Positions 13,962 through 27,325 of a stretch of DNA of 64,000 bases are shown here, in pieces; the first letter of the stretch is position 1; every line of letters starts with the position of its first letter. The notes below the pieces were generated by a model. The model saw nothing but the letters and a program-made list of their open reading frames with translations. It searched no databases and had not been told where the DNA came from. The stretch is from an uncultured Granulosicoccaceae bacterium (GTDB lineage Bacteria > Pseudomonadota > Gammaproteobacteria > Granulosicoccales > Granulosicoccaceae), in contig CALLMF010000027.1 in assembly GCA_938006335.1 (NCBI GenBank), forward strand, positions 1 to 64,000. The letters run 5' to 3'. A program made the position numbers and the translations under genes.

Positions 13962-15614
13962 CTAAGGCGTTTCAAACGCGGTCGTCAGAAGCTCACGCAT
14001 CGACCACATCGGCAGGCTGGTGCCGTTCTGGTCGGGCACCATGCCGTCGACGAAGTACTCTGTCGGTAGCCTGTCGAGCAATTGCGCATCGTCGCTGATG
14101 AAGTGGATCGGCGTGTCGGCGGTCTTTCCCCAACCGGCGATGATCGAGGTGGGCTGATGGTCGCCGAGGACGATCATCAGCGAACCCTCGCCGAACAAGC
14201 TGGCGTACTCGCCTACCATGCTCAAGGAGTACTCGAGCGATGTGGCATAGGCGTCCCGCACGCTGTCGCGGTCGCGCCAGTTCATCGGGCCGCCAAAGCG
14301 ATGCGAGCCATCGAACACCGACCCGTCGCCGACATCTTCCCAGGGGATGCCTCGCGGCAAGGGGTTCCATGGCACATGCGAACTGAGCAAGGCAATCTCT
14401 GCCGCCACATCGCCGTCGGTGGAGTGCCGCATGTTCGCCTCGAACGCAGACAAGGAATACTGGTCCGGCATGGTGACGTAGCCGAAGGGCTCACCCTGAT
14501 AGTCCATGCCGTCACGATTGCGCAGATCATCGAAGCCGTACCAGCTGCCTTCGGGCCATGCCTTCTGAATGGCGGGTAGCAAGCCGAAGGTGGTCCAACC
14601 GGCTTCGCTCAGCAGTGAGTACAGTGATTTTCTCGAGGAGGTGACCAGGCGGTCGTAGCGGGCCTGGTTATCCACCCGCAAGCCCGCAGCGAATGACGAA
14701 TGTGCCAACCAGCTGCGGCCACCGCGAATCGGTGACTCGACCCAACCACTGCGTGCATGCAAGCCCGCAGCAAGCGTGTTCGCCTGAATCTGTTCGAGCA
14801 TGGCCTCGGCGCGGGGCTGCAGGCTTTCGTAGGCGAGAAAGCTGCGTCCATAGGATTCGATGAACACGACCACTAGGTCCCGCCCTTGCAGTGCGGCAAA
14901 GCGCGGCGGGGCGTTCGGGTCTACCGTCTCTTGTTCAAGCTCTTCGGCAAATTCGCGCTGATCGGCGACCGAGCGCTGCAAGGCTTCGATCCGATCTGCC
15001 AGTTCGGGTAACACGGCTGCAGAGACAGGCGCTTTTTCGTTCTGGAATAGCCACGCTGCGCCGACAACAGCAGCGATCGCGGCGCACGCAATGACGGTAG
15101 TGTTGGCGCTCAAGCGTCCGAGCGCCATGAGCCCGCGATACAAGGCGAGGCACAGCAGCGCCAGTACCAGTACGCTTGCGACCACGATGACCAGCGCGGG
15201 AACCAGGCCGATGCTGGTTGACGCGAGGTGCCAGCCATCACCGATAAGATGCCATTCGAGGAGCGGGCTGAAGCGTCGGTCGAAGGCGAGGTAGGAACCG
15301 AGATCAAGAATGCGCAGCAGCAACAACAGCCCGAGTATCGCCACGATCGCGGCGCACCATGATCCGGTGCTGCGCCGCGTCAGCAAGCGTGTTGCAAGGC
15401 CCAGTATGGCAATGATGATGAACCACTCGATGGGGATGACACTGATCTGCGCGAATGTGAAGTCGTTCGGGTGAGCGGGGAAACGCAGCAACAGGAACAA
15501 GGCGATGGCGGTGAGAATCGCCACGCGGGTAAACGGCGCCGACTCAGTCCTGCCATGCGCGTCGCCATCGCTGCGGCGCTCATGCTGCTGGTGTTCTTCT
15601 CGCTTGATGTTCAT
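13962..15614 (-). CDS. Membrane sulfatase / LtaS-like phosphotransferase
   Basis: An alkaline-phosphatase-superfamily enzyme with about five N-terminal membrane helices (residues 28-185) and a large periplasmic domain. Metal and active-site cues: DLVVVFIESYGRSFLAYE, GGRSWLAHSSFAAGL (a Ser/Thr nucleophile region) and the late LGDHQPTSIIAG. The family includes LTA synthase, phosphoethanolamine and phosphoglycerol transferases and sulfatases, and the substrate cannot be chosen. From ATG 15614 it would overlap the divergent flippase-like gene by 60 bp head to head. A GTG at 15524 would avoid this and still keep the first membrane helix. Confidence 0.82.
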   Translation of the reverse strand: MNIKREEHQQHERRSDGDAHGRTESAPFTRVAILTAIALFLLLRFPAHPNDFTFAQISVIPIEWFIIIAILGLATRLLTRRSTGSWCAAIVAILGLLLLLRILDLGSYLAFDRRFSPLLEWHLIGDGWHLASTSIGLVPALVIVVASVLVLALLCLALYRGLMALGRLSANTTVIACAAIAAVVGAAWLFQNEKAPVSAAVLPELADRIEALQRSVADQREFAEELEQETVDPNAPPRFAALQGRDLVVVFIESYGRSFLAYESLQPRAEAMLEQIQANTLAAGLHARSGWVESPIRGGRSWLAHSSFAAGLRVDNQARYDRLVTSSRKSLYSLLSEAGWTTFGLLPAIQKAWPEGSWYGFDDLRNRDGMDYQGEPFGYVTMPDQYSLSAFEANMRHSTDGDVAAEIALLSSHVPWNPLPRGIPWEDVGDGSVFDGSHRFGGPMNWRDRDSVRDAYATSLEYSLSMVGEYASLFGEGSLMIVLGDHQPTSIIAGWGKTADTPIHFISDDAQLLDRLPTEYFVDGMVPDQNGTSLPMWSMRELLTTAFETP

Positions 15615-16529
15615 GCCCTCGTGGCGCAGCTGTCAGGTATCACCCCAGTAACGATGTTGCTTGGCGTGGCGGTCGGCGTGTTGATCGTGCAAATACAGAC
15701 CCTGCTGTCTGCCTGGCGCTGGCAGCTCACCGCAGGTGCGCTCGGTCTGCACATCGGTTTTGTGGAGGCTGCGCGTGAGTACTATCTGGCAACACTGGTG
15801 AATCAGACCTTGCCCGGCGGCGTTGCGGGAGACGCTGCGCGCGTGGTGCGCAGTCGGCATGCGGCCGGAGTAGCTACTGCGGCCCATAGCGTCATGGTAG
15901 AGCGTCTTGCCGGACAAGTGACCCTCGCTGTCATTACGACTGTCGGGCTGGCTGCGTGGCCGTGGCTGTTGCCGGGACGGTCGCCGGTGTCCCCCGTGGT
16001 AGTGCTTGCCGGAATCGTCATTGTCAGCGTGGCGCTGCTCGCCCTGGTGCTCCTTGCGCGTCGCCTGTCGGAGCGGCAGCGAGCGGCACGCTCGGCGATA
16101 GCTGAGCCGCAGCGTACCGTACCGCGCATGATGCAGCGGGCTGCAGAGGTATCGGCTCGCTTTGTCGCGGAGTTTGGCCCGTCGCTGCGCAGGGCGCTGC
16201 TGGAAGAGGGCGCCTGGCGCTTGCAGTTGGCTCTCAACGTCGCGATTGTCCTGAGTTATCTGGCGCTGTTCGCCGTGGCAGCTCATATCGTATCGACGCC
16301 GCTGCCGTGGTTGGCACTGGTCACGATAGTACCGCTGACTCTGCTGGCCATGGCCTTGCCGATCTCCATCGGGGGCTGGGGCGTGCGCGAAGCGGCAGCG
16401 GCCGTGTTGTGGCCGCTGATGGGTCTGGATGCCGAGCTGGGAGTGGTGACCAGCGTCGTGTATGGACTGATTTCGCTGTTCGGTAGTGTGCCGGGAGCGT
16501 TCTTTGTCGTGCGGCGCACTGATCGGTAG
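15555..16529 (+). CDS. YbhN/UPF0104-type flippase-like integral membrane protein
   Basis: 324 residues with about eight membrane segments, of the lysylphosphatidylglycerol-synthase transmembrane-region family. Diagnostic blocks are YYLATLVNQTLPGGVAGDAARVVR, MVERLAGQVTLAV and LPISIGGWGVREAAA. The family includes putative lipid or sugar-lipid flippases. It is arranged head to head with the LtaS-like gene, so both may act on the same envelope lipid, but this is inference. ATG 15555 places the first helix (VAIAAALMLLVFFSLDVHAL) at the start. Confidence 0.85.
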   Translation: MRVAIAAALMLLVFFSLDVHALVAQLSGITPVTMLLGVAVGVLIVQIQTLLSAWRWQLTAGALGLHIGFVEAAREYYLATLVNQTLPGGVAGDAARVVRSRHAAGVATAAHSVMVERLAGQVTLAVITTVGLAAWPWLLPGRSPVSPVVVLAGIVIVSVALLALVLLARRLSERQRAARSAIAEPQRTVPRMMQRAAEVSARFVAEFGPSLRRALLEEGAWRLQLALNVAIVLSYLALFAVAAHIVSTPLPWLALVTIVPLTLLAMALPISIGGWGVREAAAAVLWPLMGLDAELGVVTSVVYGLISLFGSVPGAFFVVRRTDR

Positions 16530-16634: not shown

Positions 16635-19421
16635 ATGTTCAAGGATACGCAACACCTTGTCTCGATGGCCGTCGTCGCTGCGGTCCTGCTGACGGGCGCG
16701 CCGGTAGCGCTTGGCGCGGGCGAAAGACCCGACGCACCCACGGGGATCATCAGCGGTGTGACGGGGGGCAGCGTCATGCTGTCGTGGCAAGAGCCCGCGG
16801 ATGACGATCGCATCGAGGGCTACAACGTCTATCGTGACAATCAGTACCTGACCACGGTATCGGACACTCGATACGAGGGCGATATCGCTGAAGGCGCCGT
16901 GCACAGCTTTTACGTGGTTGCCTTCGATACGGAACCGCGCCGGTACTCGACCGCTTCCGAGACGGTGTACCTACCGCAGGCCCCCGCGATTGAAGACAAC
17001 AATACGGCGCCTGGCGCTCCTGGTGGTCTGACCGGGACCATCAGCGGCTCGGACGTCGCCTTGCAATGGCAGGCATCCACGGATGACGTGGCGGTACTCG
17101 GCTACAACGTGTACGAGAACAACCGCTACATCACGACGGTAACGGCGACCAACTACACGGGCAGGGTAGAGGCAGGACGCAATTACACCTACTACATCGT
17201 TGCCTTCGATGGCCGGCAGAATTTCTCGCCGCGTTCGCAATCACTCTCCCTGCCGGATGGCGGCTCCGTTCCGGTCAGTGATACCACCGCTCCGAGTCAG
17301 CCACGAGCGCTGACCGGTAACGTCGTGGCGGGTGGCAGTGGAGATACCTTTCGTGTGAGCTGGCAAGCGTCAAGCGACAATGTGCAGGTGCTCGGTTACA
17401 ACGTGTACGTCAATGACAACTACACCACGACCGTGACCGGCACCACGTTCGAGACGGTGTTGGGTGCAGACTCAAGCAATCGGTTCCAGATCGTTGCCTT
17501 TGATGCGGTACCGAATTTTTCACAACCGTCCGAGTCCCTGACGCTGCACCGCGGCTCATCTGCCACTGACCCCGCCGATGGGCCCGACACCACGCCCGTT
17601 GATAGCGATGTGGTACTCAGCGCAGCGACTGGATTGACGGGCACCATGGATCAGAACGGCAACGTTCGGATCACCTGGTCTGCGCCGAGCGTTGGCAACC
17701 CGACCGGCTACAACGTGTACCGTAACAACGCCTATGTCGCCTCGGTATCAACATCGAGCTACAGCGCCACGCTGAACCCTGACGAGGTGTACTCGTTCTA
17801 CGTGACCGCCTACGACGGTCGCGGCAATTTTTCTGCACGTTCGGCGCGACTGACGCTTCCGGACAGCGACAACCTGGCGCCGTTCTTCGTGAACCTCGAA
17901 GATCAGGTCATCGAAGCCGGCCCCGTCTGGGAATACCGTATTCAGCCAGCGGATATCGACGGGGATCTTCCTGGCTTGTTCATCGGCACGCTACCCACGG
18001 GCATGCAGGAGCTCGACAACCGCGACGGGTCGCGCACCTTGCGCTGGAGACCACTGCAACCCGATGTCGGCAACTATTCGATCGAGATCACGGCCTACGA
18101 TGCAGACGACCCTGATCTGACCACGGTGGTCTCGCTCGGCTTGCAAGTGGTGTTACCTGCTGATCTGTCGATCATCCCGAACCTGGCGCCGACCATTGAT
18201 GCTGTAGGTGATCATGTCGTGCGAGCGGGCGATCCCATCGTGCTGCGAGTAAAGGCGGTCGATGCCAATGGCACCGTGCCTGATCTTGTCATCCTGAATC
18301 CACCGGAAGGGTCGACCTTCACCGCGCTGGCGACAGACCCGCGCGTGAGGGAGCTTCGCTACCAGAGCGGCGCGGACGACATCGGTGTCACCGTCTTCGA
18401 CTTTTTCGCAACCGATGCAGAAGACGCATCCCTCACGGCTACCGCCACGGCCTCATTGGAGTTTCGACCGGGCTCGGCGTTTGAACGAGACGGCAGCCGT
18501 CTACGAAACCTTGCACGCCAGGCAGGGATCGATATCGGCTACGCCTCGCTGCTGGAAGTCACGGCCAAACCCGATGGCGTGCTCTATCAGGACATTGCAC
18601 GCGAGGAGTTCAACCTGGTGACCCCTGAGAATTCCATGAAGTGGGGGTATGTGAATCCGGAGCGCGGTGTGTATCGCTGGGAAGAGGCTGACACGCTGGT
18701 GGCCTTTGCCGCCCAACACGGCATGCAGGTGCATGGTCATGCGCTGGTGTGGTACGCCCAGTTGCCACAGTGGGTGCAACAGTCGGATGTTGCCGAGCGT
18801 GAGTCTTTGATGAACGCGTTCATCGATACGATGATCGCGCGCTACCCCAACGTGGATATCTGGGATGTCGTCAACGAAGCGTTTGAAGACGATGGCCGTT
18901 TTCGTAATTCGGTGTGGTTCGAGGCGATGGGAGAGAGCCATATCGACCGGGCCTTCCGACGCGCCCGGCTAAACGACGCCGACGCCACGCTGATCTACAA
19001 CGACTACGACGTGGCAGCGGGAGGCCCCAAGACCGATGCCATGTATGCGCTGGTCGCGCGCCTTGTCCGCGATGGTGTGCCCATCGACGGGGTGGGATTT
19101 CAGATGCACGTGACCACGGACTATCAGGATTTTGCAGCGGTCGCCGCCACCTTCCAGCGCTTTGCCGATCTCGGGCTCGATATCTACATCACTGAACTGG
19201 ACGTCAACCGCGTGGACGGTGATAGTGACGCCGATCAGGCAGCGGTGTTTGCCAACACGGTGCGCACCTGCATGCAACAGCCGGCGTGCCGGGCGGTGCA
19301 AACCTGGGGCTTTACGGATCGCTACACATGGCGATCGCCGAACACGCCGCTATTGCTGGATGAGGAATATCAGGCCAAGGAGTCTTATCGCGCCGTGCAA
19401 CGGGCGCTGACGGGGCAGTGA
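16635..19421 (+). CDS. Secreted GH10 endo-1,4-beta-xylanase with fibronectin III repeats
   Basis: 928 residues, exported (signal LVSMAVVAAVLLTGAPVALG). Four fibronectin type III modules run roughly 30-125, 125-220, 222-315 and 330-420, each with a GYNVY phrase and a FYVVAFD-like end. Two Ig/cadherin-like modules follow (about 420-620). The GH10 domain covers about 630-928. Its acid/base Glu is in WDVVNEAFED and its nucleophile Glu in IYITELDVNR, with VTPENSMKWGYVNPE and HGHALVWYAQLPQW also typical. It should hydrolyse xylan outside the cell, with FN3 modules as spacers. No other xylan-use gene is adjacent, so it looks like a stand-alone enzyme. Confidence 0.95.
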   Translation: MFKDTQHLVSMAVVAAVLLTGAPVALGAGERPDAPTGIISGVTGGSVMLSWQEPADDDRIEGYNVYRDNQYLTTVSDTRYEGDIAEGAVHSFYVVAFDTEPRRYSTASETVYLPQAPAIEDNNTAPGAPGGLTGTISGSDVALQWQASTDDVAVLGYNVYENNRYITTVTATNYTGRVEAGRNYTYYIVAFDGRQNFSPRSQSLSLPDGGSVPVSDTTAPSQPRALTGNVVAGGSGDTFRVSWQASSDNVQVLGYNVYVNDNYTTTVTGTTFETVLGADSSNRFQIVAFDAVPNFSQPSESLTLHRGSSATDPADGPDTTPVDSDVVLSAATGLTGTMDQNGNVRITWSAPSVGNPTGYNVYRNNAYVASVSTSSYSATLNPDEVYSFYVTAYDGRGNFSARSARLTLPDSDNLAPFFVNLEDQVIEAGPVWEYRIQPADIDGDLPGLFIGTLPTGMQELDNRDGSRTLRWRPLQPDVGNYSIEITAYDADDPDLTTVVSLGLQVVLPADLSIIPNLAPTIDAVGDHVVRAGDPIVLRVKAVDANGTVPDLVILNPPEGSTFTALATDPRVRELRYQSGADDIGVTVFDFFATDAEDASLTATATASLEFRPGSAFERDGSRLRNLARQAGIDIGYASLLEVTAKPDGVLYQDIAREEFNLVTPENSMKWGYVNPERGVYRWEEADTLVAFAAQHGMQVHGHALVWYAQLPQWVQQSDVAERESLMNAFIDTMIARYPNVDIWDVVNEAFEDDGRFRNSVWFEAMGESHIDRAFRRARLNDADATLIYNDYDVAAGGPKTDAMYALVARLVRDGVPIDGVGFQMHVTTDYQDFAAVAATFQRFADLGLDIYITELDVNRVDGDSDADQAAVFANTVRTCMQQPACRAVQTWGFTDRYTWRSPNTPLLLDEEYQAKESYRAVQRALTGQ

Positions 19422-19452: not shown

Positions 19453-20199
19453 TCAGTTGCCGGGCTGGCGCCGCATCAGCCACTGCGTGTCGCGTGCAAA
19501 CGATGCGATCAGGCACAATAGTGCGCTGACGCCGAGCAGCGTTGCGAGGGTGCCGTTGATCAGTGGTGTCAGCAAGGCTGCAAGCGTTGCGACCTGAATG
19601 ACGCAAACGGTCTTGCGACGCATCGAGGGGAACAAGGGCTGTTGCAATGCCGGGAAGTACAGGCCTGCGGCAACGAAGAGATATCGGAGTACGCCAAGAC
19701 CGAGAATCCAGATGCCGAACTGCTGACTGCGCCACAGCAACAGGCTCATGACCAGTGCCAGTAGCGCATCGACTTCCATGTCAAAACGCGCACCAAACGC
19801 GGTTGACTCATTGCGACTCCGGGCGAGATAGCCATCAAGGCCATCCATCAGCAATGCAACGATCGCAATAATACTGAGTACCCAGAAGATGCCGCTGCCG
19901 ATCTGGTCCGCGACGGGCACGAAGGCGGCAAGAAGCACGGTCGCGCCTGCACGTATCGTGGTGACGGTATTGGCGAGCCCGAAGTAGCTCGACAGTGGTG
20001 CGGATCGGGTGAGTCCGCGTACGATCAGCACGCCGACCACAGCCCACACGAGCATGGCGGTAACGATGGGTGTCGCACTGGTGTCACCCGCAGCGGTGAC
20101 GATACATGTCGCCGCAACGGTCGCGGCCATGGTGCTTGTCAGCGCGAATGCCGCCTTGTCGGGCAGGCCCGGTCGGTACCCTTGTGGCAGATCAGGCAT
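19453..20199 (-). CDS. CDP-alcohol phosphatidyltransferase family protein
   Basis: 248 residues, about six membrane helices. The family motif is complete: DGLDGYLARSRNESTAFGARFDMEVDA, i.e. D..DG..AR, then G...D...D. These enzymes exchange CMP of a CDP-alcohol for another alcohol, most often making phospholipids or lipid-linked headgroups. It starts only 16 bp after the GTP cyclohydrolase II gene and reads the same way, so the pair should be co-transcribed. That pairing is unusual and is part of the cluster discussed in the findings. Confidence 0.85.
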   Translation of the reverse strand: MPDLPQGYRPGLPDKAAFALTSTMAATVAATCIVTAAGDTSATPIVTAMLVWAVVGVLIVRGLTRSAPLSSYFGLANTVTTIRAGATVLLAAFVPVADQIGSGIFWVLSIIAIVALLMDGLDGYLARSRNESTAFGARFDMEVDALLALVMSLLLWRSQQFGIWILGLGVLRYLFVAAGLYFPALQQPLFPSMRRKTVCVIQVATLAALLTPLINGTLATLLGVSALLCLIASFARDTQWLMRRQPGN

Positions 20200-20215
20200 G
20201 ACTTACTGCGCGAAA

Positions 20216-21358
20216 TCAGTGGTCACGCAAACCGCCTTCGGCGACCGAGGGCAAGTGCCCGCCAAGATCGCGCTTGGTCTGCAGATAGTGAAGGTTGTGC
20301 GGATTAATGGAGCCGGATACCGCCACTTGTTCCACCACCTGGATGCCGTTGCTATCAAGTGCGCTTATCTTGGCTGGATTGTTGGTGAGCAAGCGGATCT
20401 GCTCTATTCCAAGATCGGTAAGTATGGTGAGCGCGGGCGTAAAGTCGCGACCATCGGCGCCGAAGCCGAGGTGCCGGTCCGCATCAATGGTGTCATGTCC
20501 TACCGCTTGCATGCTGTAGGCGCGCATCTTGTTGGCGAGTCCGATGCCGCGGCCTTCCTGATCCAGATAAAGGATCACGCCACCGCCGTTGGCCTCCATG
20601 TGTTCGACGGCACCGGCGAGCTGTTCGCCACAATCGCAACGCAAGCTGCCAAACAGGTCGCCGGTAAAGCAGGCTGAATGCAGTCGCACGTTGACCGGTT
20701 CTTCCATGTCCGGAGTCCCGACTACCACAGCGACATGTTGTGCATCGCCAAAGCGCTCGCGGTACACCACAAACTCGGTCTCGGCGGCATGCTCGAGCTG
20801 CACCTGAGCCTGAGATGCACGCTCGAGCAAGCGCCCGCGCACCGCGGCGTATACCTTGACCTCGTCCGCACTGATCGGCTGGGCGCCGTCGAGCACACAC
20901 GCTTCGCTGCAGACAAGCAGTGCAGGCATGCGACCGGCCTGACGTGCCAGCTCGAGCACGGCAGTCGCCTGTGGCGAACGGTCGGCACGGCATTCGAAAG
21001 GACCGTGGTACACATCGGTCGGATCGATGATGCCGGCAAGCTTGCGCAGTTGTTCAAGCGGTGTGGCTCCGGGCAAGGTCACCTCGACGGCATCGGTCGT
21101 GAAGTCATGCCCCAGCACACTGGCGCGCTCGCGGCTGATCAGCAGCTTGATCTGTCCGCTGCGATGGCGCGTGAGCATGTCCCCGTTGAGGTGCTCGATC
21201 ACAACGTAGCTGCTGGCGAGTTTGCCGTCGGAGACGGTTACAGGTCGTCCATGGCGGAGCACGAAGATCGCATGGTTGACCCTGAACGCCGTGCCGGTTA
21301 TGTCGGAATCGCCCATACGTCGCGTGTGTAGAGGGTCGACTGCAGTGTTGTTCGACAT
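20216..21358 (-). CDS. GTP cyclohydrolase II with a degenerate RibB-like N-terminal domain
   Basis: The C-terminal half (about residue 190 on) is a full GTP cyclohydrolase II, which opens GTP to a diaminopyrimidine ribosyl phosphate with loss of formate and pyrophosphate. The zinc cysteines are in LHSACFTGDLFGSLRCDC and the catalytic/GTP region is DQEGRGIGLANKMRAYS. The N-terminal half has the outline of a DHBP synthase domain, but the acidic DRENEGD-type signature is absent, so that activity is unlikely. ATG 21358 is chosen over 21391 because of AAGGG upstream. It is divergent from the RibD-reductase gene. Confidence 0.87.
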   Translation of the reverse strand: MSNNTAVDPLHTRRMGDSDITGTAFRVNHAIFVLRHGRPVTVSDGKLASSYVVIEHLNGDMLTRHRSGQIKLLISRERASVLGHDFTTDAVEVTLPGATPLEQLRKLAGIIDPTDVYHGPFECRADRSPQATAVLELARQAGRMPALLVCSEACVLDGAQPISADEVKVYAAVRGRLLERASQAQVQLEHAAETEFVVYRERFGDAQHVAVVVGTPDMEEPVNVRLHSACFTGDLFGSLRCDCGEQLAGAVEHMEANGGGVILYLDQEGRGIGLANKMRAYSMQAVGHDTIDADRHLGFGADGRDFTPALTILTDLGIEQIRLLTNNPAKISALDSNGIQVVEQVAVSGSINPHNLHYLQTKRDLGGHLPSVAEGGLRDH

Positions 21359-21505
21359 CAATGGACGCCCTTGAGTGATACTTGATTCCATGTCGTTACG
21401 ATGACAGGGCGCGGTTGGCGCACCACTGGTATTGGAAAATCGACACGGTATGTGGCGATCCTTGGGCGCGGCGTGCCCTCCGATCTTGACCTGTTGACAG
21501 AACCG

Positions 21506-22327
21506 ATGAGTGATTCACTTCACAGAACGTGGGCAGCGCTGCTCGAAATGGCTGATGCCCGCCGTGCTGGCGCTCCATATGAAATGCCGTCTGGGCTCAT
21601 GCCGGATCTCGTGCAGCTCTACGCCATGGTGGCAACGGGTGATGACCATGGCCGCTTGCTGATCGCTCATCTGGGCCAGAGCATTGACGGCTGTATTGCG
21701 ACGGAAAACGGCGACTCGGTTCAGGTTACGGGGCAGGAGAATTTTGTTCACCTGCATCGATTGCGCGCCCTGTCTGACGCCATCGTCGTTGGTGCGCAGA
21801 CGGCGCGGGCCGACGACCCGAAGCTGACGACACGCCTGGTGGAAGGACCATCACCCGCGCGGGTCATCATCGATCAGCGTGGGGAACTGCCACCGCATCT
21901 TGGTGTGTTTACCGATACCGACGCAGATACGTACCTGGTATGCGCCCACGGTGTCAGTACATCGTCGGTGCCGGCCGACAAGCACATCCCTGTACCCATC
22001 GTCGATGGGCGACTGTGCATGCGAGCCATGCGTGATGACTTGGCTGATCGCGGCATGCACGTTGTGTTTGTGGAAGGCGGCGGGGTAACGGTCACCCATC
22101 TTGTGCAGGCGGATCTCGTCGATCGTCTGCATATTGCGGTTGCCCCGGTACTGATCGGGCGCGGTCGGCGCGGCCTTGCATTGCCTTCGGCAGCGGACAT
22201 GTCAGCGGCGATTCGTCCAGCCGCCCATTGCTATCGCATGGGAGAGGATGTGCTTTGGGATCTGGACCTCTCCAGGACCGGCGTACGCCAGGAGACATCG
22301 CCTCAAGAGCCGACGCTGATTTACTGA
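21506..22327 (+). CDS. RibD C-terminal (reductase) domain protein
   Basis: About 273 residues. The C-terminal three quarters is the dihydrofolate-reductase-like RibD reductase: HGRLLIAHLGQSIDGCIATE, LHRLRALSDAIVVGAQTARADDP, then VVFVEGGGVTVTHLV. The zinc deaminase domain of bifunctional RibD (HAE and PC..C motifs) is missing; the first 55 residues are an unrelated helical segment. Such reductases reduce the ribosyl side chain of the GTP cyclohydrolase II product or act on similar pyrimidines. The frame is open to 21401 without a better start. Located between divergent ribA and a convergent methyltransferase gene. Confidence 0.85.
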   Translation: MSDSLHRTWAALLEMADARRAGAPYEMPSGLMPDLVQLYAMVATGDDHGRLLIAHLGQSIDGCIATENGDSVQVTGQENFVHLHRLRALSDAIVVGAQTARADDPKLTTRLVEGPSPARVIIDQRGELPPHLGVFTDTDADTYLVCAHGVSTSSVPADKHIPVPIVDGRLCMRAMRDDLADRGMHVVFVEGGGVTVTHLVQADLVDRLHIAVAPVLIGRGRRGLALPSAADMSAAIRPAAHCYRMGEDVLWDLDLSRTGVRQETSPQEPTLIY

Positions 22328-22357
22328 AGCACAAACACCATCGGGCGACGATGTTGC

Positions 22358-23248
22358 TCAGACATCAGGTGGAACACCCAGCACATCCACATGCCCGACC
22401 GTCAGATGGAGTTGCCCTCGTATACGTTGTTCGTGCCGTCGCTGAAGCCACGCATCGATCTGATCTTTTTCTGCTGGGCATTGCTCGCGCGCAGCCTCGC
22501 ACCATCCTTCCATCAGTGTTGCTTGCAAGGCGGTTGATTCGTGTTTCAGCTGCCAGTCCGTGTGCTCGACTTGCACCTTGTATCCGCGCTGCTGCAGCTC
22601 GCGCGCCATGCTGTGTCCGCCCTCAGGGCCCAGCGCGGCACCGAGGCCCTTGTCGCGATGCTGGTGCGCGTTTACCAGTGCGATCAAGCGCGAGTCGTAG
22701 TCGTGAGTGGGGTGGCAGTCGATGTCGCCGTTGTAGCTCAGTGCAAACAGGCAGGCTGCGTGGCTGCTGGTGATGGCCTCGGCCAACGAGGCGATGCGAT
22801 CCGCGGAGAACAGATCCAGCAGGGCAGAGGCGGTGACCAGCGCTGCATCGCTGCAGTCGGGCCAGGCATTGGCAAGATCCAGTGTTGTCAGTGCAATGGT
22901 GGTGTGCGTCTTGTTGCCGTCAAGCAAGAGCCCTTGTTCGTCTGCTTGCAGCGTCAGTCCCCTGGCTGAGGCCCACGTACCCAGCCGCATCGTCAGATGG
23001 GACAGTAGCTCGGGGTCGTTGTCGACCAGCTCCCAGTGTTGCAATACACCCAGCTGCGGTTGCAGGTAGCGCACGTTCGAGCCAGTCCCGGTGCCCAGAT
23101 CGATGATGCGGTTGGGAGTGTCTGATGCGTTGCTTGCACCTTTCCGACGGTTGAGCCAGGCTTGCAATAACGCAAGCAAGGCGTCGGAGCGGGACTCGTG
23201 ATCGGCCGCTTCACGCAGGGTCAACCAATCGGCGCTGAAGCTGCTCAT
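22358..23248 (-). CDS. SAM-dependent methyltransferase, class I
   Basis: 296 residues from ATG 23248. The SAM-binding core is RIIDLGTGTGSNVRYLQPQL, followed by WELVDNDPELL (acidic end of strand 2) and DLANAWPDCSDAALVTASALLDLFS. The C-terminal part, with FALSYNGDIDCHPTHDYDSRL and EGGHSMARELQQRGY, does not match a named methyltransferase I know. It begins 40 bp after the glycosyltransferase gene and is the last gene of the minus-strand operon. The substrate is probably the product of the neighbouring cluster. Confidence 0.82.
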   Translation of the reverse strand: MSSFSADWLTLREAADHESRSDALLALLQAWLNRRKGASNASDTPNRIIDLGTGTGSNVRYLQPQLGVLQHWELVDNDPELLSHLTMRLGTWASARGLTLQADEQGLLLDGNKTHTTIALTTLDLANAWPDCSDAALVTASALLDLFSADRIASLAEAITSSHAACLFALSYNGDIDCHPTHDYDSRLIALVNAHQHRDKGLGAALGPEGGHSMARELQQRGYKVQVEHTDWQLKHESTALQATLMEGWCEAAREQCPAEKDQIDAWLQRRHEQRIRGQLHLTVGHVDVLGVPPDV

Positions 23249-23288
23249 CGGTAGTTTTCCATTCGTGTGTTGTGTCGAATCAACGGCA

Positions 23289-24353
23289 TCACGAAGTACG
23301 GGTGCCGGAACAGGCCTCGGCGAACTGCACCGCCGCATCGCGCCATGACGAGAGTTGCAGACGTTCCTTTCGCGCCGCTTGTGTCAGCGTTTCAAGCGTG
23401 GTGGCGTCTGTCAGCACGTGCTCCAGAGCATCGGCGAGTGCCGCTGTGTCATCCGGTGGTACCAGCACGCCCGTGCCGTCCGGCACGGTGTCGGGGATGG
23501 CACCTGCTGTGGTCGAAATGATCGGCAATCCGTGAGCGATCGCCTCTGTCAGTACCATGCCGAAGCCTTCGTGAAAGGACGGTAGGACGAACAGGTCAGC
23601 GTTGAGATAGTGCTGCTCCAGAGCCGCGTCATCCGCCTCTCCGTGAAAGGTGAGTTTTCCGGCGATGTCGGTCGCTTCCAATTGCTGTTGCAGTGAGCGC
23701 CAGTGGTTTGCGTCACGTTCGATGCTTCCGACGCAGTGTGCTTCCCAGCGTAGATCCGGGCAGCGCTGTTGCAGCCTTTGCAGGGCTGCTATCAGAACGC
23801 CGTGACCCTTGCGCTCGGTGATCGTGGCCACACACAGGAGCTGCGCTACATCCCCCCGCTGATCATCGGATAGTGGCCCTCTGTCCGTGCCGGGCTCCAC
23901 GGTGACGATGCGCTCATCACTGACGTGGTAATCGGCAAGCGATGCGGTTGTAGACGGGCTCGTCGTGATGACGCGAGAGACATGCACGAGTGCGTCGGTT
24001 TCCTGCTGGCGCAGGCGCGCGGCAACGTCGGGAGTCAGTCCGGTTTCCAGCGCCAGCGGATGGTGTACCAGAGCGATCAACTGCAGGCGATGCGCGTGTC
24101 GCGCAAGCACGTCGCTCAAGACCGCGCAGGCGAGCCCGTCGATCACCACCACATGATGGTCGTCGAGTTGCTCGAGTACCGCATCTGCGTGTGCGGTATC
24201 CGCCGTGCTCGGAAATGGAAAGCTGCCAGCCAGTGGGTGCACCTCGACGACATGGCCGAGAGACCTCAGTTCCTCGATGATGCGCTTGTCGTAGCGATAG
24301 CCACCGGTGCGTGTGTCGAGCGACCCGGGGACGAGAAAAGCTGCCTTGATCAC
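23289..24353 (-). CDS. Glycosyltransferase family 4 (GT-B fold)
   Basis: 354 residues. The N-terminal acceptor domain opens with [21 protein letters not shown]. The donor domain has [30 protein letters not shown] and the retaining-enzyme E-x7-E motif in [20 protein letters not shown]. Family members transfer sugars from UDP- or GDP-sugars. It starts with GTG 24353, overlapping the stop of the PTPS-like gene as GTGA. Its presence among pterin-type genes suggests glycosylation of a pteridine or lipid product, which is inference. Confidence 0.88.
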
Positions 24354-24763
24354 GCGCTGTTGTGCGGAAGGTCGCCTTCGAAGCTCGCCCAGGCCACGTG
24401 CGACTCGTGCAGCGTCACGCGCATGCTGCTCAGACCCGCGGCAGCGGCGCCCATGTCACCGCGGCTGATCTTGCCTGCCAATTGCTCGAAGATCGCGTGA
24501 GCCAGAAACTCGGTCGTGGTGTTCTGTCCCGCGAACGCGTCATGTTCATCGAGGTTGCGAAAGTTCAGGTCGGCGAGCACGTCCTTGAGCGCAACGCTGG
24601 CAAGGCCGATGTCCACCACCAGATTGTCATCATCCAGGGAAGGACGCCGCACCTCGACATCCACGATGTAGGTGGCGCCGTGCATGGCGCGTGCAGGCCC
24701 AAAGACATCGCCGCGGAAACTGTGGGCGATCATGAAGTGATCGCGAACGTTGAGACTGAACAT
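24350..24763 (-). CDS. 6-pyruvoyl-tetrahydropterin synthase / QueD-like protein, divergent active site
   Basis: 137 residues with the T-fold layout of PTPS and Que[18 protein letters not shown], then [50 protein letters not shown] and [15 protein letters not shown]. The usual catalytic Cys before the HGH motif is absent, and the motif is HGA, so one of three zinc histidines is lost. The late Asp/His and His/Glu pairs remain. It may bind or isomerise a pterin-like substrate without ordinary PTPS chemistry. I recall relatives with the same HGA pattern annotated as 6-carboxytetrahydropterin synthase, so it is probably a conserved clade. It begins 5 bp after the dehydrogenase stop. Confidence 0.8.
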
Positions 24764-24768
24764 GGGAA

Positions 24769-25773
24769 TCAGGAATAGCGGATGCGGTGGCACAGCGTAG
24801 CGCTTGCCAGTGCTTGGGTGGAATCCGTGGCAAGACCTGCCAGTCGGGGTAGCACGTCGGGGAGTTCGTCGAAGTGGCTCTCGCCGCTGATCAGGATGTC
24901 CAGACGGGCGTTCTGCAGGAGTGCGAGCGCGAGCTTCAAACGCCGCTCGTGGTCCCAGCGGGTTCGCTGCGTTGACGCCACATGACCGACCTGAGACGAC
25001 ACGAGCTGCAGGCGACGTGAATGGAAGGCGCCTCCGAGTGGCACTGACACCGGTTGAGAGCCATACCAGCTCGCCTCCACGATTCGGGCTTCAAAGGCGG
25101 CGATCTCGAGCGCTGTTTCCAGACCTTGCGGATTGCCGCTGGTGTGGATGACAAGATCCGCTTCGGTCTGTGCTGTCGTGGGTGTGGCAAAGGAGACGTC
25201 GAGTGCCTGGGCGATGCGCTTGCGGTCCGTGTTGATGTCGATGAGCTCGACCTCGCAGCCCGCGATGGAACCGACAAGCCACGCCACCAGACAACCGACC
25301 ACGCCGGCACCGATGACTGCAACACGATCGCCGACTGCCGGTGCTGCATCCCACACGACGTTGATGGCGGTTTCCAGATTGGCGGCCAGTACGGCCCGGG
25401 CAGCGGGGACGTCTGTGGGCAAGGGTGTGACAGCGCTGGTGGGCACCACATACCGCGTTTGATGCGGGTATAGGCAGAACACGTCTCGACCGAGCATGTC
25501 CTCCGGCCCCGACTCAACGACACCGACGTTGATATAGCCGTACTTCACCGGAAATGGAAAGTCGCCGGATTGCCATGGCGCACGCATGCGTTGGTACTCG
25601 GCAGCAGGCACCTGGCCCGCCATGACCAGCGATTCCGTACCACGGCTTATCGCGCTGAAGCGGGTCGCCACCTGTACCTCGTCGGCGTCAGCGCCGGGTA
25701 GCGCAAGGTCGCGGATTTCTCCGCGACCGGCAGCGGTGTACCAGAAGGCGCGAGCATCACGTGTGTTCTTCAC
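24769..25773 (-). CDS. Medium-chain dehydrogenase (BchC-like), zinc-ligand-poor
   Basis: 334 residues. The MDR fold is clear: catalytic-domain start [32 protein letters not shown], and the Rossmann motif [18 protein letters not shown] followed by [11 protein letters not shown]. The first catalytic zinc Cys is replaced by Ser (ISRGTE, as in BchC-type dehydrogenases), and the four structural-zinc cysteines are not seen. Oxidoreduction of an alcohol/ketone side chain is likely. GTG 25773 overlaps the previous stop as GTGA, so I prefer it to the upstream ATG at 25794. Confidence 0.85.
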
Positions 25774-26594
25774 CGCGTTCTCCACGCAATCCACAACTTG
25801 AGAATGGGCGGTAGCGAATGCCCTTCGCGATGCAGCGCTGTCCTGCGCTTGGCCCAGCTCTCCAGTTGACGCAGGCGCAAGCGAGCGAGCACGACGATGG
25901 CGCGTTTATCGCTGCGGTTCGGCCACTGCGCGTCCGCATTGCTGATGCCAGCCTCAAGGTGCGTAGTCGCATGCGCGATAGCATCAGCCAACAGGGCTTG
26001 ATCAGCAGCAGCGATCGTGTCCGAGCTCGTGCTGATGAGTGAGGCGGGTTCGGTGCCGTGCCGTTCGTAGAGTTCGTTGGGAAACACTGGTTGACCTGCG
26101 GCAAGCAGCCGAGGAAGGTGTGTCAGGCGATGATGGTGGCCAAGTCCGACTGCGAGCGGCGACAGCGCGTCACGGGTCTCGGTGACGGATGTGCCAGCAA
26201 GGCTGGCTTCGCACAGGGCGAGCAGGCCACCGTAGCCGCGAGCGAGACGCTCATCGAGTTCCTTCATGGTCGCCGCCGGTGTATAGCGTTCATCCGCCGC
26301 AGCGCCGAGCACATCGAGCGCGGCATCGCGCGCCTTGTCGTCACCGGCGAGGTCTCTGCAGGCCTTGGTGTTCGGGTGGCGTGCTTGCCCCTGGTGCAGA
26401 CGCTCGAGTTCCTCGTGCCACCAGTGCAGCTTCTTGTGTGCAACTTCTGGAGTAGCAACATCGAGCAATGCGTCCATCAGTGCCTGGCCGAGTGCCAGGC
26501 GTGCGAGTGTCCGCGTGCGCCCAGGGTCCGCTACCCCCCAAAGCGAGTAATACAGGCTCGACCCTTCATGCGGTTGCGCTACCGAGTCGCTCAC
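25770..26594 (-). CDS. Squalene/phytoene-synthase-family protein (NDUFAF6-like)
   Basis: 274 residues from GTG 26594, which overlaps the ubiG stop as GTGA. The start SSLYYSLWGVADPGRTRTLARLALGQALMDALLDV is followed by VAHKKLHWWHEELERL, the pattern of trans-isoprenyl-diphosphate synthase relatives such as NDUFAF6. The paired Asp-rich motifs of true squalene and phytoene synthases are not evident. Catalysis on prenyl diphosphates is therefore uncertain; the protein may be non-enzymatic or use another substrate. The longer frame to 26822 is antisense-style sequence inside ubiG. Confidence 0.7.
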   Translation of the reverse strand: MSDSVAQPHEGSSLYYSLWGVADPGRTRTLARLALGQALMDALLDVATPEVAHKKLHWWHEELERLHQGQARHPNTKACRDLAGDDKARDAALDVLGAAADERYTPAATMKELDERLARGYGGLLALCEASLAGTSVTETRDALSPLAVGLGHHHRLTHLPRLLAAGQPVFPNELYERHGTEPASLISTSSDTIAAADQALLADAIAHATTHLEAGISNADAQWPNRSDKRAIVVLARLRLRQLESWAKRRTALHREGHSLPPILKLWIAWRTR

Positions 26595-27325
26595 CCCTGC
26601 TGGCGCGCCATGAGCATGTAGTTGACATCGACGTCTCGCTCGTTCAGCGAGTAGACGCGCGTGAGCGGGTTGTAGACAAGGCCGGTCATGTCGGTGACCT
26701 CGAGCTTTGCGGCGCGGCAATGGCTGGAGAGCTCGGCAGGAGTGATGAACTTGTTCCACTCGTGGGTGCCGCGCGGCAGCAACCTCAAGATGTATTCCGC
26801 ACCGACGATGGCAAACAGCCACGACTTGGGGTTGCGGTTGATGGTGGACAGGAACACGTGACCGCCTGATGTCGTGAGCGTCTGGCAGGCGGCGACCGTC
26901 GAGGCCGGGTCTGGCACGTGCTCGAGCACTTCGAGGCAGGTGACGATATCGAAGCTTGCGGGCTCCTCTGCGGCGAGCTGTTCGGCCGAGATGTTGCGAT
27001 AGTCGATGTCGAGCCCACTCTCGCGGGCGTGCAGCCGGGCGACAGCCAGGGGCGCTTCGGCAAGATCGATCGCCGTCACGCGTGCGCCAGCGGCGGCCAT
27101 GGATTCGGCAAGGATGCCGCCGCCGGTGCCGATGTCGAGCACGCGCTTGCCCGCCAGGGGCGCGCGTTCGGCGATCCAGTCGAGGCGCAGGGGGTTGATC
27201 TGGTGGAGGGGGCGGAAGTCACCTTCCGGGTCCCACCAGCGAGAGGCGAGCTCGTCGAACTTGGCGAGTTCGGCGACGTCGACGTTGCCGGATGGGGGTG
27301 CGTTTTCCGGGTTTTCAGCGGGCAT
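26591..27325 (-). CDS. ubiG: Ubiquinone biosynthesis O-methyltransferase UbiG
   Basis: Two-step O-methyltransferase of ubiquinone synthesis. Diagnostic blocks: KFDELASRWWDPEGDFRPLHQINPLR, VLDIGTGGGILAESMA (SAM motif I) and FDIVTCLEVLEHVPDPAST. The late part contains KSWLFAIVGAEYILRLLPRGTHEW. 244 residues, normal length. It leads a tight minus-strand operon that continues into the squalene-synthase-like, dehydrogenase and PTPS-like genes, which is not its usual setting. Divergent from gyrA, a common arrangement in gammaproteobacteria. Confidence 0.97.
   Translation of the reverse strand: MPAENPENAPPSGNVDVAELAKFDELASRWWDPEGDFRPLHQINPLRLDWIAERAPLAGKRVLDIGTGGGILAESMAAAGARVTAIDLAEAPLAVARLHARESGLDIDYRNISAEQLAAEEPASFDIVTCLEVLEHVPDPASTVAACQTLTTSGGHVFLSTINRNPKSWLFAIVGAEYILRLLPRGTHEWNKFITPAELSSHCRAAKLEVTDMTGLVYNPLTRVYSLNERDVDVNYMLMARQQG

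Follow-up and report, generated by a model that had tools for sequence, protein, structure and literature searches.

The closest described counterparts of the locus analyzed here come from Streptomyces coelicolor, in which the work of Spoonamore and Bandarian reportedly dealt with SCO6650, a PTPS homolog, and SCO6655, a homolog of GTP cyclohydrolase II (GCH II). SCO6650 is said to be inactive as a PTPS, and with SCO6655 the reaction reportedly does not go beyond the formylated product, owing to a methionine at its product-switch position. Cyanobacterial pteridine glycosides combine a pterin with a glycosyltransferase and start from GTP cyclohydrolase I; compared with that system, the present cluster has GCH II, a methyltransferase (MT), a CDP-alcohol phosphatidyltransferase (CDP-OH) and an LPG_synthase_TM protein (LPG-TM). 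The first steps of riboflavin synthesis (RibA and the RibD reductase; archaeal ArfA/ArfB/ArfC; bacterial BrbF) are carried out by enzymes of the families also found in the cluster, and the first intermediates are probably shared as well. PTPS and QueD (COG0720) belong to the same Pfam family as the PTPS-like T-fold protein of the cluster (hereafter PTPS), and the function of one COG0720 subfamily, PTPS-V, is called unclear in a passage of a published account (PMC5041015) that states no motif for it. The literature covered, in which subscription journals are thinly represented, yielded no account of the gene set or of its product, for the SCO6650/SCO6655 group included.

Gene organization and conservation of the cluster

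In the window (the whole 64,000-nucleotide stretch of DNA that was analyzed), the nine genes named in the preliminary description are all present where it placed them, and the tight spacing that it claimed (most genes coupled or less than 45 bp apart) is confirmed, with gaps of at most 40 bp between neighbors (from ubiG down, -4, -25, 8, -4, 40, 30, 9 and 16 bp, negative values denoting overlaps). The gene of the reductase domain RibD_C runs in the opposite direction to the other eight, so that the nine genes do not form one operon. Seven of the nine belong to a conserved cluster; the other two, which had been counted in, are found in 0 of 80 related loci. These are the gene of an SQS/PSY (HpnD-like) protein (25770-26594, - strand; PF00494, E 1.1e-10), which, among the loci examined, the window shares with the same-genus genome L120 alone, and the housekeeping ubiquinone methyltransferase gene ubiG (26591-27325, - strand; TIGR01983, 277.5 bits against a cut-off of 102.95). 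Conversely, the range originally given to the cluster misses one member, LPG-TM (15471-16529, + strand; PF03706, E 1.6e-40), a flippase-like membrane protein related to the lysylphosphatidylglycerol synthase TM region, the gene of which directly adjoins that of CDP-OH in L120.

The relatives were sampled as 80 loci, the best of 562, chosen by their PTPS-like protein, and the sample is skewed toward close relatives of the window PTPS; 62 of these loci span at least 19 kb. In all 62, the BchC-like dehydrogenase (MDR), the GT4 family glycosyltransferase (GT4) and MT are each present together with PTPS, and this four-gene core rules out a chance neighborhood. In the same 62 loci, CDP-OH is present in 54, LPG-TM in 46, RibD_C in 42, creatininase in 38 and GCH II in 35; 58 loci carry one or more of RibD_C, creatininase and GCH II. 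Across all 80 PTPS-selected loci, the counts are 80 for MDR, 79 for GT4, 78 for MT, 67 for CDP-OH and 54 for LPG-TM. Of the 12 commonest arrangements, which account for 50 of the 80 loci, 11 have MDR-PTPS-GT4-MT as an uninterrupted block, and the window carries this block in the same order. Thus, seven adjacent genes and LPG-TM close by form a real conserved cluster, and the core of the earlier idea, a conserved gene set separate from riboflavin synthesis, is borne out.

The hosts belong to Pseudomonadota, Actinomycetota, Gemmatimonadota and Acidobacteriota. Among the 11 Streptomyces loci listed, 10 have CDP-OH, MDR, PTPS, GT4, MT, creatininase/LPG-TM and GCH II, with RibD_C in addition in one locus; eight genes would fit SCO6648-SCO6655. 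In haloarchaea, GTP cyclohydrolase IIa is encoded beside MDR in place of GCH II, and Haloarcula has GTP cyclohydrolase IIa, MDR, PTPS, MT and CDP-OH in one run. Gene fusions include GCH II-RibD_C, found in 2 genomes directly upstream of MDR-PTPS, creatininase-RibD_C in locus L093, and GT4 with MT as a single ORF in 16 of the 80 loci. The fusions and the haloarchaeal replacement of GCH II tie these genes to one pathway.

The scattering among relatives that the preliminary description would have held against a cluster is not observed, the core genes being together in the relatives examined, with exceptions such as genome G223, where the GCH II/RibD_C/creatininase genes are at a different locus from MDR-PTPS-GT4-MT. 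Genomes G068 and G155 have an extra RibD_C, and G272 an extra GCH II, away from MDR; a short contig of G174 carries MDR, GCH II and RibD_C, with no match to PTPS. GCH II, RibD_C and creatininase are all missing in 4 of the 62 long loci and in Neorhizobium L037. The separate locus in G223 and the 4 loci without these genes, along with the presence of MdoH in 15 and MdoG in 17 of the 80 loci, would fit two modules that merely travel together, one (GCH II, creatininase, RibD_C) supplying a diaminopyrimidine phosphate and the other (GT4, MT, CDP-OH, LPG-TM, sometimes MdoG/MdoH) making an envelope glycolipid with no pteridine in it. We consider this explanation unlikely given that the pterin-type proteins PTPS and MDR accompany GT4 and MT in every long locus, that the haloarchaeal run joins GTP cyclohydrolase IIa to MDR and, in Haloarcula, to PTPS, MT and CDP-OH, and that the GCH II-RibD_C fusions directly precede MDR-PTPS.

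Early enzymes and separation from riboflavin synthesis

The GCH II of the window (20216-21391, - strand; PF00925, E 1.7e-56) scores 190.8 bits against a domain cut-off of 23.3, and the three zinc cysteine columns are invariant in 42 of 42 aligned GCH II sequences. It has tyrosine at the product-switch position, which we take to mean release of formate. In this it differs from SCO6655 as reported; the window further adds RibD_C and has no creatininase gene within positions 12001-34000. Two other GCH II loci of the 42 also have no creatininase. All 19 GCH II with another residue at the switch (Met in 11, His in 6, Ile in 1, Gln in 1) are accompanied by creatininase, as are 20 of the 23 with tyrosine, so that the switch predicts creatininase in one direction only and there is no strict covariation. 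One member of the creatininase family, BrbF, is a proven deformylase in such chemistry (PMC9478397).

The stand-alone RibD_C (21401-22327, + strand; PF01872, E 1.9e-33, residues 87-257) has an N-terminal extension and no deaminase domain. In the PDB, its top match (E 2.8e-22) is the 2,5-diamino-6-ribosylamino-pyrimidinone phosphate reductase 6p8c. Homology, together with the fusions and the replacement of GCH II, supports the following early steps. GCH II would convert GTP to 2,5-diamino-6-ribosylamino-4(3H)-pyrimidinone 5'-phosphate, a creatininase-family deformylase would act after it in many relatives, and RibD_C would reduce the ribose to ribityl, giving 2,5-diamino-6-ribitylamino-pyrimidinone, the 2-amino group of which would be retained because RibD_C has no deaminase.

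GCH II and RibD_C are riboflavin-type enzymes, and the cluster might accordingly be an accessory operon for the supply of riboflavin or a secreted flavin. However, single-sequence searches with RibB, RibE, RibH and the RibD deaminase of the host (E<=1e-5) match in 0 of 88 loci, and a riboflavin operon is rejected on this basis; compared with the riboflavin pathway, the cluster adds PTPS, MDR, GT4, MT and CDP-OH, four of which make up the invariant core. The host also has a separate rib operon and another copy of GCH II on contig C9, so that the cluster GCH II is the second copy of the genome and not the only one, the case that the preliminary description had singled out as adverse. A role in flavin supply thus appears very improbable. 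At least two copies of RibD_C are present in 15 of 16 MDR-bearing genomes versus 2 of 10 others, and at least two of GCH II in 8 of 16 versus 1 of 10. G255, a 96%-complete genome of 1.0 Mb, keeps the cluster RibD_C and has no GCH II; RibH and RibE are missing as well, so that a missing operon or auxotrophy is possible.

The T-fold protein, the dehydrogenase and the transferases

The PTPS of the window (24350-24760, - strand; PF01242, E 3.7e-23) is an ortholog of SCO6650, its closest solved relative (PDB 3d7j, E 5.2e-49). The pterin-anchor glutamate, shared with PTPS and QueD, is kept in 87 of 87 PTPS sequences. In contrast to PTPS/QueD, the CxxxHGH-type motif is replaced by HGA: the third zinc-ligand histidine is alanine in 86 of 87 sequences, the position of the catalytic histidine is occupied by histidine in only 1 of 87, and the catalytic motif has no cysteine in 15 of 15, the 15 PTPS sequences of the search alignment being those found beside MDR. 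In PTPS/QueD, three histidines bind zinc, and a cysteine and a histidine are catalytic. With the third zinc ligand and the catalytic residues lost and the QueD model reaching 41.3 bits (cut-off 89.25), a canonical PTPS/QueD identity is rejected. Membership in the PTPS family would otherwise invite the notion of a queuosine- or BH4-type pathway with incidental neighbors; considering also the closeness to SCO6650, reportedly PTPS-inactive, such a pathway is hardly credible.

The MDR oxidoreductase (24769-25794, - strand) falls below the cut-offs of both the BchC model TIGR01202 (52.3 bits; cut-off 291.25) and ADH_zinc_N (E 2.8e-5), and its matches in a PDB sequence search are weak (best E 5.4e-5). 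The motifs SRGTE and YGY stand where the canonical zinc-ligand cysteine and histidine would presumably be. GT4 (23289-24353, - strand, GTG start) is readily recognized (PF13692, E 2e-31). The MT (22358-23248, - strand) belongs to a divergent class I SAM methyltransferase family, and its earlier identification needs qualification: the window protein has no Pfam match at E<=0.001, methyltransferase hits being sub-threshold, whereas one of three orthologs scanned (L059) passes the curated cut-off of Methyltransf_25 (33.4 bits versus 27).

Membrane proteins and the predicted product

CDP-OH (19453-20199, - strand; PF01066, E 1.9e-16) is a membrane enzyme of phospho-alcohol transfer. In an alignment of 72 sequences, the eight motif positions are each conserved in 71 or all 72; a PDB sequence search yields no match at E<=0.001. 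The CDP-OH gene recurs across all four bacterial host phyla; LPG-TM, which the two Acidobacteriota loci lack, occurs in three of them. CDP-OH is missing in 8 and LPG-TM in 16 of the 62 long loci, all of which have MDR-PTPS-GT4-MT, a pattern that would suit a soluble, non-lipid glycosyl-methyl-pterin (a cofactor, pigment or UV screen), with CDP-OH and LPG-TM serving in export or as auxiliary proteins. The spread of both proteins over several phyla and the intact CDP-OH motif make this rather unlikely.

These observations are best compatible with the proposal, made with moderate confidence, that the cluster diverts GTP from riboflavin to a glycosylated, methylated and probably membrane-linked compound that would keep the 2-amino-4-oxo-pyrimidine of GTP. 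This compound would be a pterin or the open aminopyrimidine precursor, and its glycosylation, methylation and lipid link are likewise predicted. MDR would oxidize a side-chain alcohol; the SCO6650-type T-fold protein would bind the aminopyrimidinone or pterin via its invariant glutamate and may help to form or reshape the ring; GT4 would add a sugar and its partner MT a methyl group; CDP-OH would attach a phospholipid-type group, and LPG-TM could move the product across the membrane.

A more specific version, possible but doubtful, is that the products are membrane lipids of a class so far undescribed, in which a pterin forms the head group. In this case, DARiPP would be oxidized at the ribityl C2' by the zinc-less MDR, and ring closure inside the T-fold protein would yield a dihydroneopterin-like pterin independently of GTP cyclohydrolase I. 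This pterin would then receive a sugar and a methyl group, be linked by CDP-OH to a phosphatidyl group and be flipped outward. If this is correct, it would be, to our knowledge, the first pathway with a pterin as a lipid head group, spread over several phyla and perhaps haloarchaea.

More generally, a predicted GTP-derived metabolite would be encoded in members of at least four bacterial phyla, with a related form in haloarchaea, by genes that are annotated singly as queuosine, riboflavin or phospholipid enzymes. The pathway would account for the second GCH II and the lone RibD reductase of some bacteria and would assign a function to SCO6650-type PTPS. It predicts that a guanosine label enters a lipid or glycoside, which is testable in Streptomyces.

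As for the remaining genes, the SQS-like protein, inspected by eye, does not have the second Asp-rich motif of SQS-type proteins. All-against-all clustering of the locus ORFs, blurred by antisense ORFs, gave 8 ORFs that were scanned against Pfam, 5 of them with no match; FkbM, MdoG and an ABC permease were followed further.

Gene content and conservation of the cluster

The preliminary description proposed a nine-gene pathway, and the ORF list and family scans bear out these genes and their order: GTP cyclohydrolase II (GCH II), a RibD reductase domain without deaminase (RibD_C), an SCO6650-type T-fold protein (PTPS), a BchC-like dehydrogenase (MDR), a glycosyltransferase (GT4), a methyltransferase (MT), a CDP-alcohol phosphatidyltransferase (CDP-OH), a squalene synthase (SQS)-like protein and ubiG. 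Adjacent pairs overlap by at most 25 bp or are separated by at most 40 bp. RibD_C (21401-22327, plus strand) is flanked by two minus-strand genes; because its domain match in the family scan begins only at residue 87 of the ORF, the true start may lie further in, with a divergent gap to GCH II of more than 9 bp.

One profile scan of genome contigs, with an alignment of 15 PTPS relatives, all originally found beside MDR, as the query, confirmed at least 562 PTPS relatives; only the best 80 were kept, so this sample leans to close relatives. Genes were counted with HMMs, each seeded with one protein from the window or from a relative. Among the 62 of these 80 loci that hold at least 19 kb, MDR, GT4 and MT are present in 62/62 each, CDP-OH in 54, a flippase-like membrane protein (LPG-TM) in 46, RibD_C in 42, creatininase in 38 and GCH II in 35, and 58 encode one or more of the trio GCH II, creatininase and RibD_C. 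The corresponding counts for all best 80 loci are MDR 80, GT4 79, MT 78, CDP-OH 67, RibD_C 54, LPG-TM 54, creatininase 45 and GCH II 40. The SQS-like gene and ubiG, included in the original proposal, occur in none of the 80 and drop out of the cluster. Among the loci examined, the SQS-like gene (HpnD/SQS-like, 25770-26594, minus strand, 4-bp overlap with ubiG) is seen only in the genus of the window, where another genome (locus L120) contains the entire window set, including both genes. By eye, the second Asp-rich motif of this protein is degenerate.

In the window, a 928-aa ORF (16635-19421, plus strand) lies between LPG-TM and the CDP-OH gene, which are adjacent in L120; by eye, this ORF has Fn3-like repeats and ends in a GH10-xylanase-like domain. 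The listed LPG-TM ORF start is overlapped by a 550-aa membrane ORF (13962-15614, minus strand) that has no Pfam match and by eye resembles LTA-synthase/sulfatase-type proteins. The FkbM methyltransferase, MdoG and MdoH are encoded in 18, 16 and 14, respectively, of the 62 longer loci. Across 88 loci, the FkbM gene lies near the cluster in 24 and the OPG glucan genes mdoG and mdoH in 17 each (e.g., L046, L049, L054, L093, L118, L036 and L037), which may point to a connection with periplasmic glucans.

Relation to riboflavin biosynthesis

Judged by its best matches, the host is probably a gammaproteobacterium. Its genome (3.8 Mb, 93.75% complete; the window lies on contig C27) encodes a rib operon on contig C9, with RibD_C (451-aa frame, C9:20080), riboflavin synthase (C9:20802), the second GCH II domain of the host (420-aa frame, C9:22114) and RibH (C9:22788). 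Given this second GCH II, the window enzyme is not the only copy; a sole copy able by itself to complement riboflavin auxotrophy would, according to the preliminary description, have spoken against the cluster idea. The window PTPS is the sole PTPS-family match in the host contigs. Single-sequence searches (E<=1e-5) with the host-operon RibH, RibE, RibB and RibD deaminase matched 0 of 88 loci, some of which are short and some haloarchaeal, with versions possibly too distant for these queries.

An MDR match better than 1e-40 is found in 16 of 274 genomes of the class, own included. At least two RibD_C copies are present in 15 of these 16 vs 2 of 10 hand-picked genomes without such a match, and at least two GCH II copies in 8/16 vs 1/10. 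Against a dedicated pathway, the extra RibD_C lies away from MDR in three genomes (G068, G155, G223) and the extra GCH II in two (G272, G223), and genome G255 (96% complete) lacks GCH II, RibH and RibE although it carries the cluster RibD_C. In its relative G142, the three genes absent from G255 sit together, so that the gap in G255 could be one missing stretch or auxotrophy. Both genomes (about 1.0-1.1 Mb; loci L123 and L124) keep CDP-OH, MDR, PTPS, GT4, MT, LPG-TM and RibD_C together, suggesting that the product is important even to bacteria with such small genomes.

Distant members, probable transfer and gene fusions

The dehydrogenase matches 72 plasmid records (tblastn), of which seven were inspected (Thiodictyon, Streptomyces, Methylosinus, Neorhizobium, Microbacterium and two haloarchaea). 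On the haloarchaeal plasmids (L035, L038), a gene for GTP cyclohydrolase IIa, which we take to be the same enzyme as archaeal GTP cyclohydrolase III, is next to the MDR gene. In Natrarchaeobaculum this enzyme adjoins MDR, and Haloarcula pelagica encodes CDP-alcohol transferase, GTP cyclohydrolase IIa, MDR, PTPS and MT in one run. In a maximum-likelihood MDR tree, Actinomycetota form one group and Thioalkalivibrio falls among Gemmatimonadota and Acidobacteriota; at least one transfer is therefore likely, though not proven. A short contig of G174 has MDR, GCH II and RibD_C without a PTPS match.

Another PTPS subfamily (L015, L016 and L018, from genomes G010, G249 and G182), with an H(S/A)H(H/Q)Y-type motif, is still paired with MDR, possibly as part of a sister pathway whose PTPS is able to bind zinc. 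In L125, L126 and L127 of the same genomes, it is found by MDR and either RibD_C or a GCH II-RibD_C fusion. In G249 (462 aa) and G182 (434 aa), this fusion is a single ORF, with MDR and PTPS immediately downstream. A creatininase-RibD_C fusion (L093, 614 aa) has non-overlapping domains, and GT4-MT fusion ORFs occur in 16 of the best 80 loci; nine of these were examined for separate domains, including the L051 ORF, which is truncated by the end of its contig. These fusions link the cluster genes pairwise. BrbF, of the creatininase family, has been shown to deformylate the formylamino intermediate in riboflavin synthesis, and according to the same paper archaeal GTP cyclohydrolase III yields the formylated product (PMC9478397). 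This chemistry, the fusions and the replacement of one enzyme by another point to a formyl- or diamino-pyrimidine at the pathway start.

Predicted enzymes and pathway

The best PDB match of the window PTPS is 3d7j (SCO6650 from Streptomyces coelicolor, E 5.2e-49; next match, E 0.11), and by sequence it is an orthologue of SCO6650. With residue roles assumed from PTPS/QueD work, the first two zinc histidines and the pterin-binding Glu120 are invariant in 87/87 PTPS sequences, the third zinc histidine is replaced by Ala in 86/87, and the catalytic histidine position is Glu or Asp in 78/87. MDR has SRGTE and YGY at what we take to be the canonical Cys and His ligand sites, and thus is devoid of the canonical ligand residues. 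GCH II retains the zinc cysteines in 42/42 aligned sequences; at the switch position, 23 of these have Tyr and the other 19 have Met, His, Ile or Gln. In CDP-OH, all eight motif positions are conserved in at least 71 of the 72 sequences. The best PDB match of RibD_C is 6p8c, named 2,5-diamino-6-ribosylamino-4(3H)-pyrimidinone 5'-phosphate reductase (E 2.8e-22), followed by 2azn (archaeal, E 6.2e-19) and 7lrh, a RibD (E 9.9e-18). Two NCBIfam models match it below their cut-offs, the general RibD_C model with 119.7 bits and the one for the archaeal reductase with 100.8. For PTPS-V, a PTPS/QueD subfamily that might include the window PTPS, a review describes the function as unclear (PMC5041015).

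Sequence comparison shows a conserved gene set with a second GCH II, a reductase that lacks the deaminase, a degenerate PTPS site and, in relatives, gene fusions, and it gives no match to genes committed to riboflavin. One dedicated pathway very likely exists, and its starting compound is probably what GCH II or IIa produces. The 2-amino group would be retained, MDR and PTPS would form a ring, a sugar, a methyl group and a phospholipid would be attached, and the product would be flipped outward. The chances that the end product is lipid-linked are about even; a GTP-derived dedicated pathway to a sugar-decorated, methylated, probably lipid-linked product is somewhat favoured as a whole, since the lipid link enters this statement only as a probability.

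In Streptomyces, SCO6655, the GCH II homologue, is listed in PMC2853524 among genes with expression opposite to predicted flux, most of which rise in stationary phase. A table in PMC3610822 gives SCO6652, a hypothetical protein, values of 0.8, 4.3 and 4.1, presumably for second mycelium at 24, 48 and 72 h, the stages that the paper names. SCO6652 would be the cluster methyltransferase if numbering follows the gene order of the Streptomyces loci.
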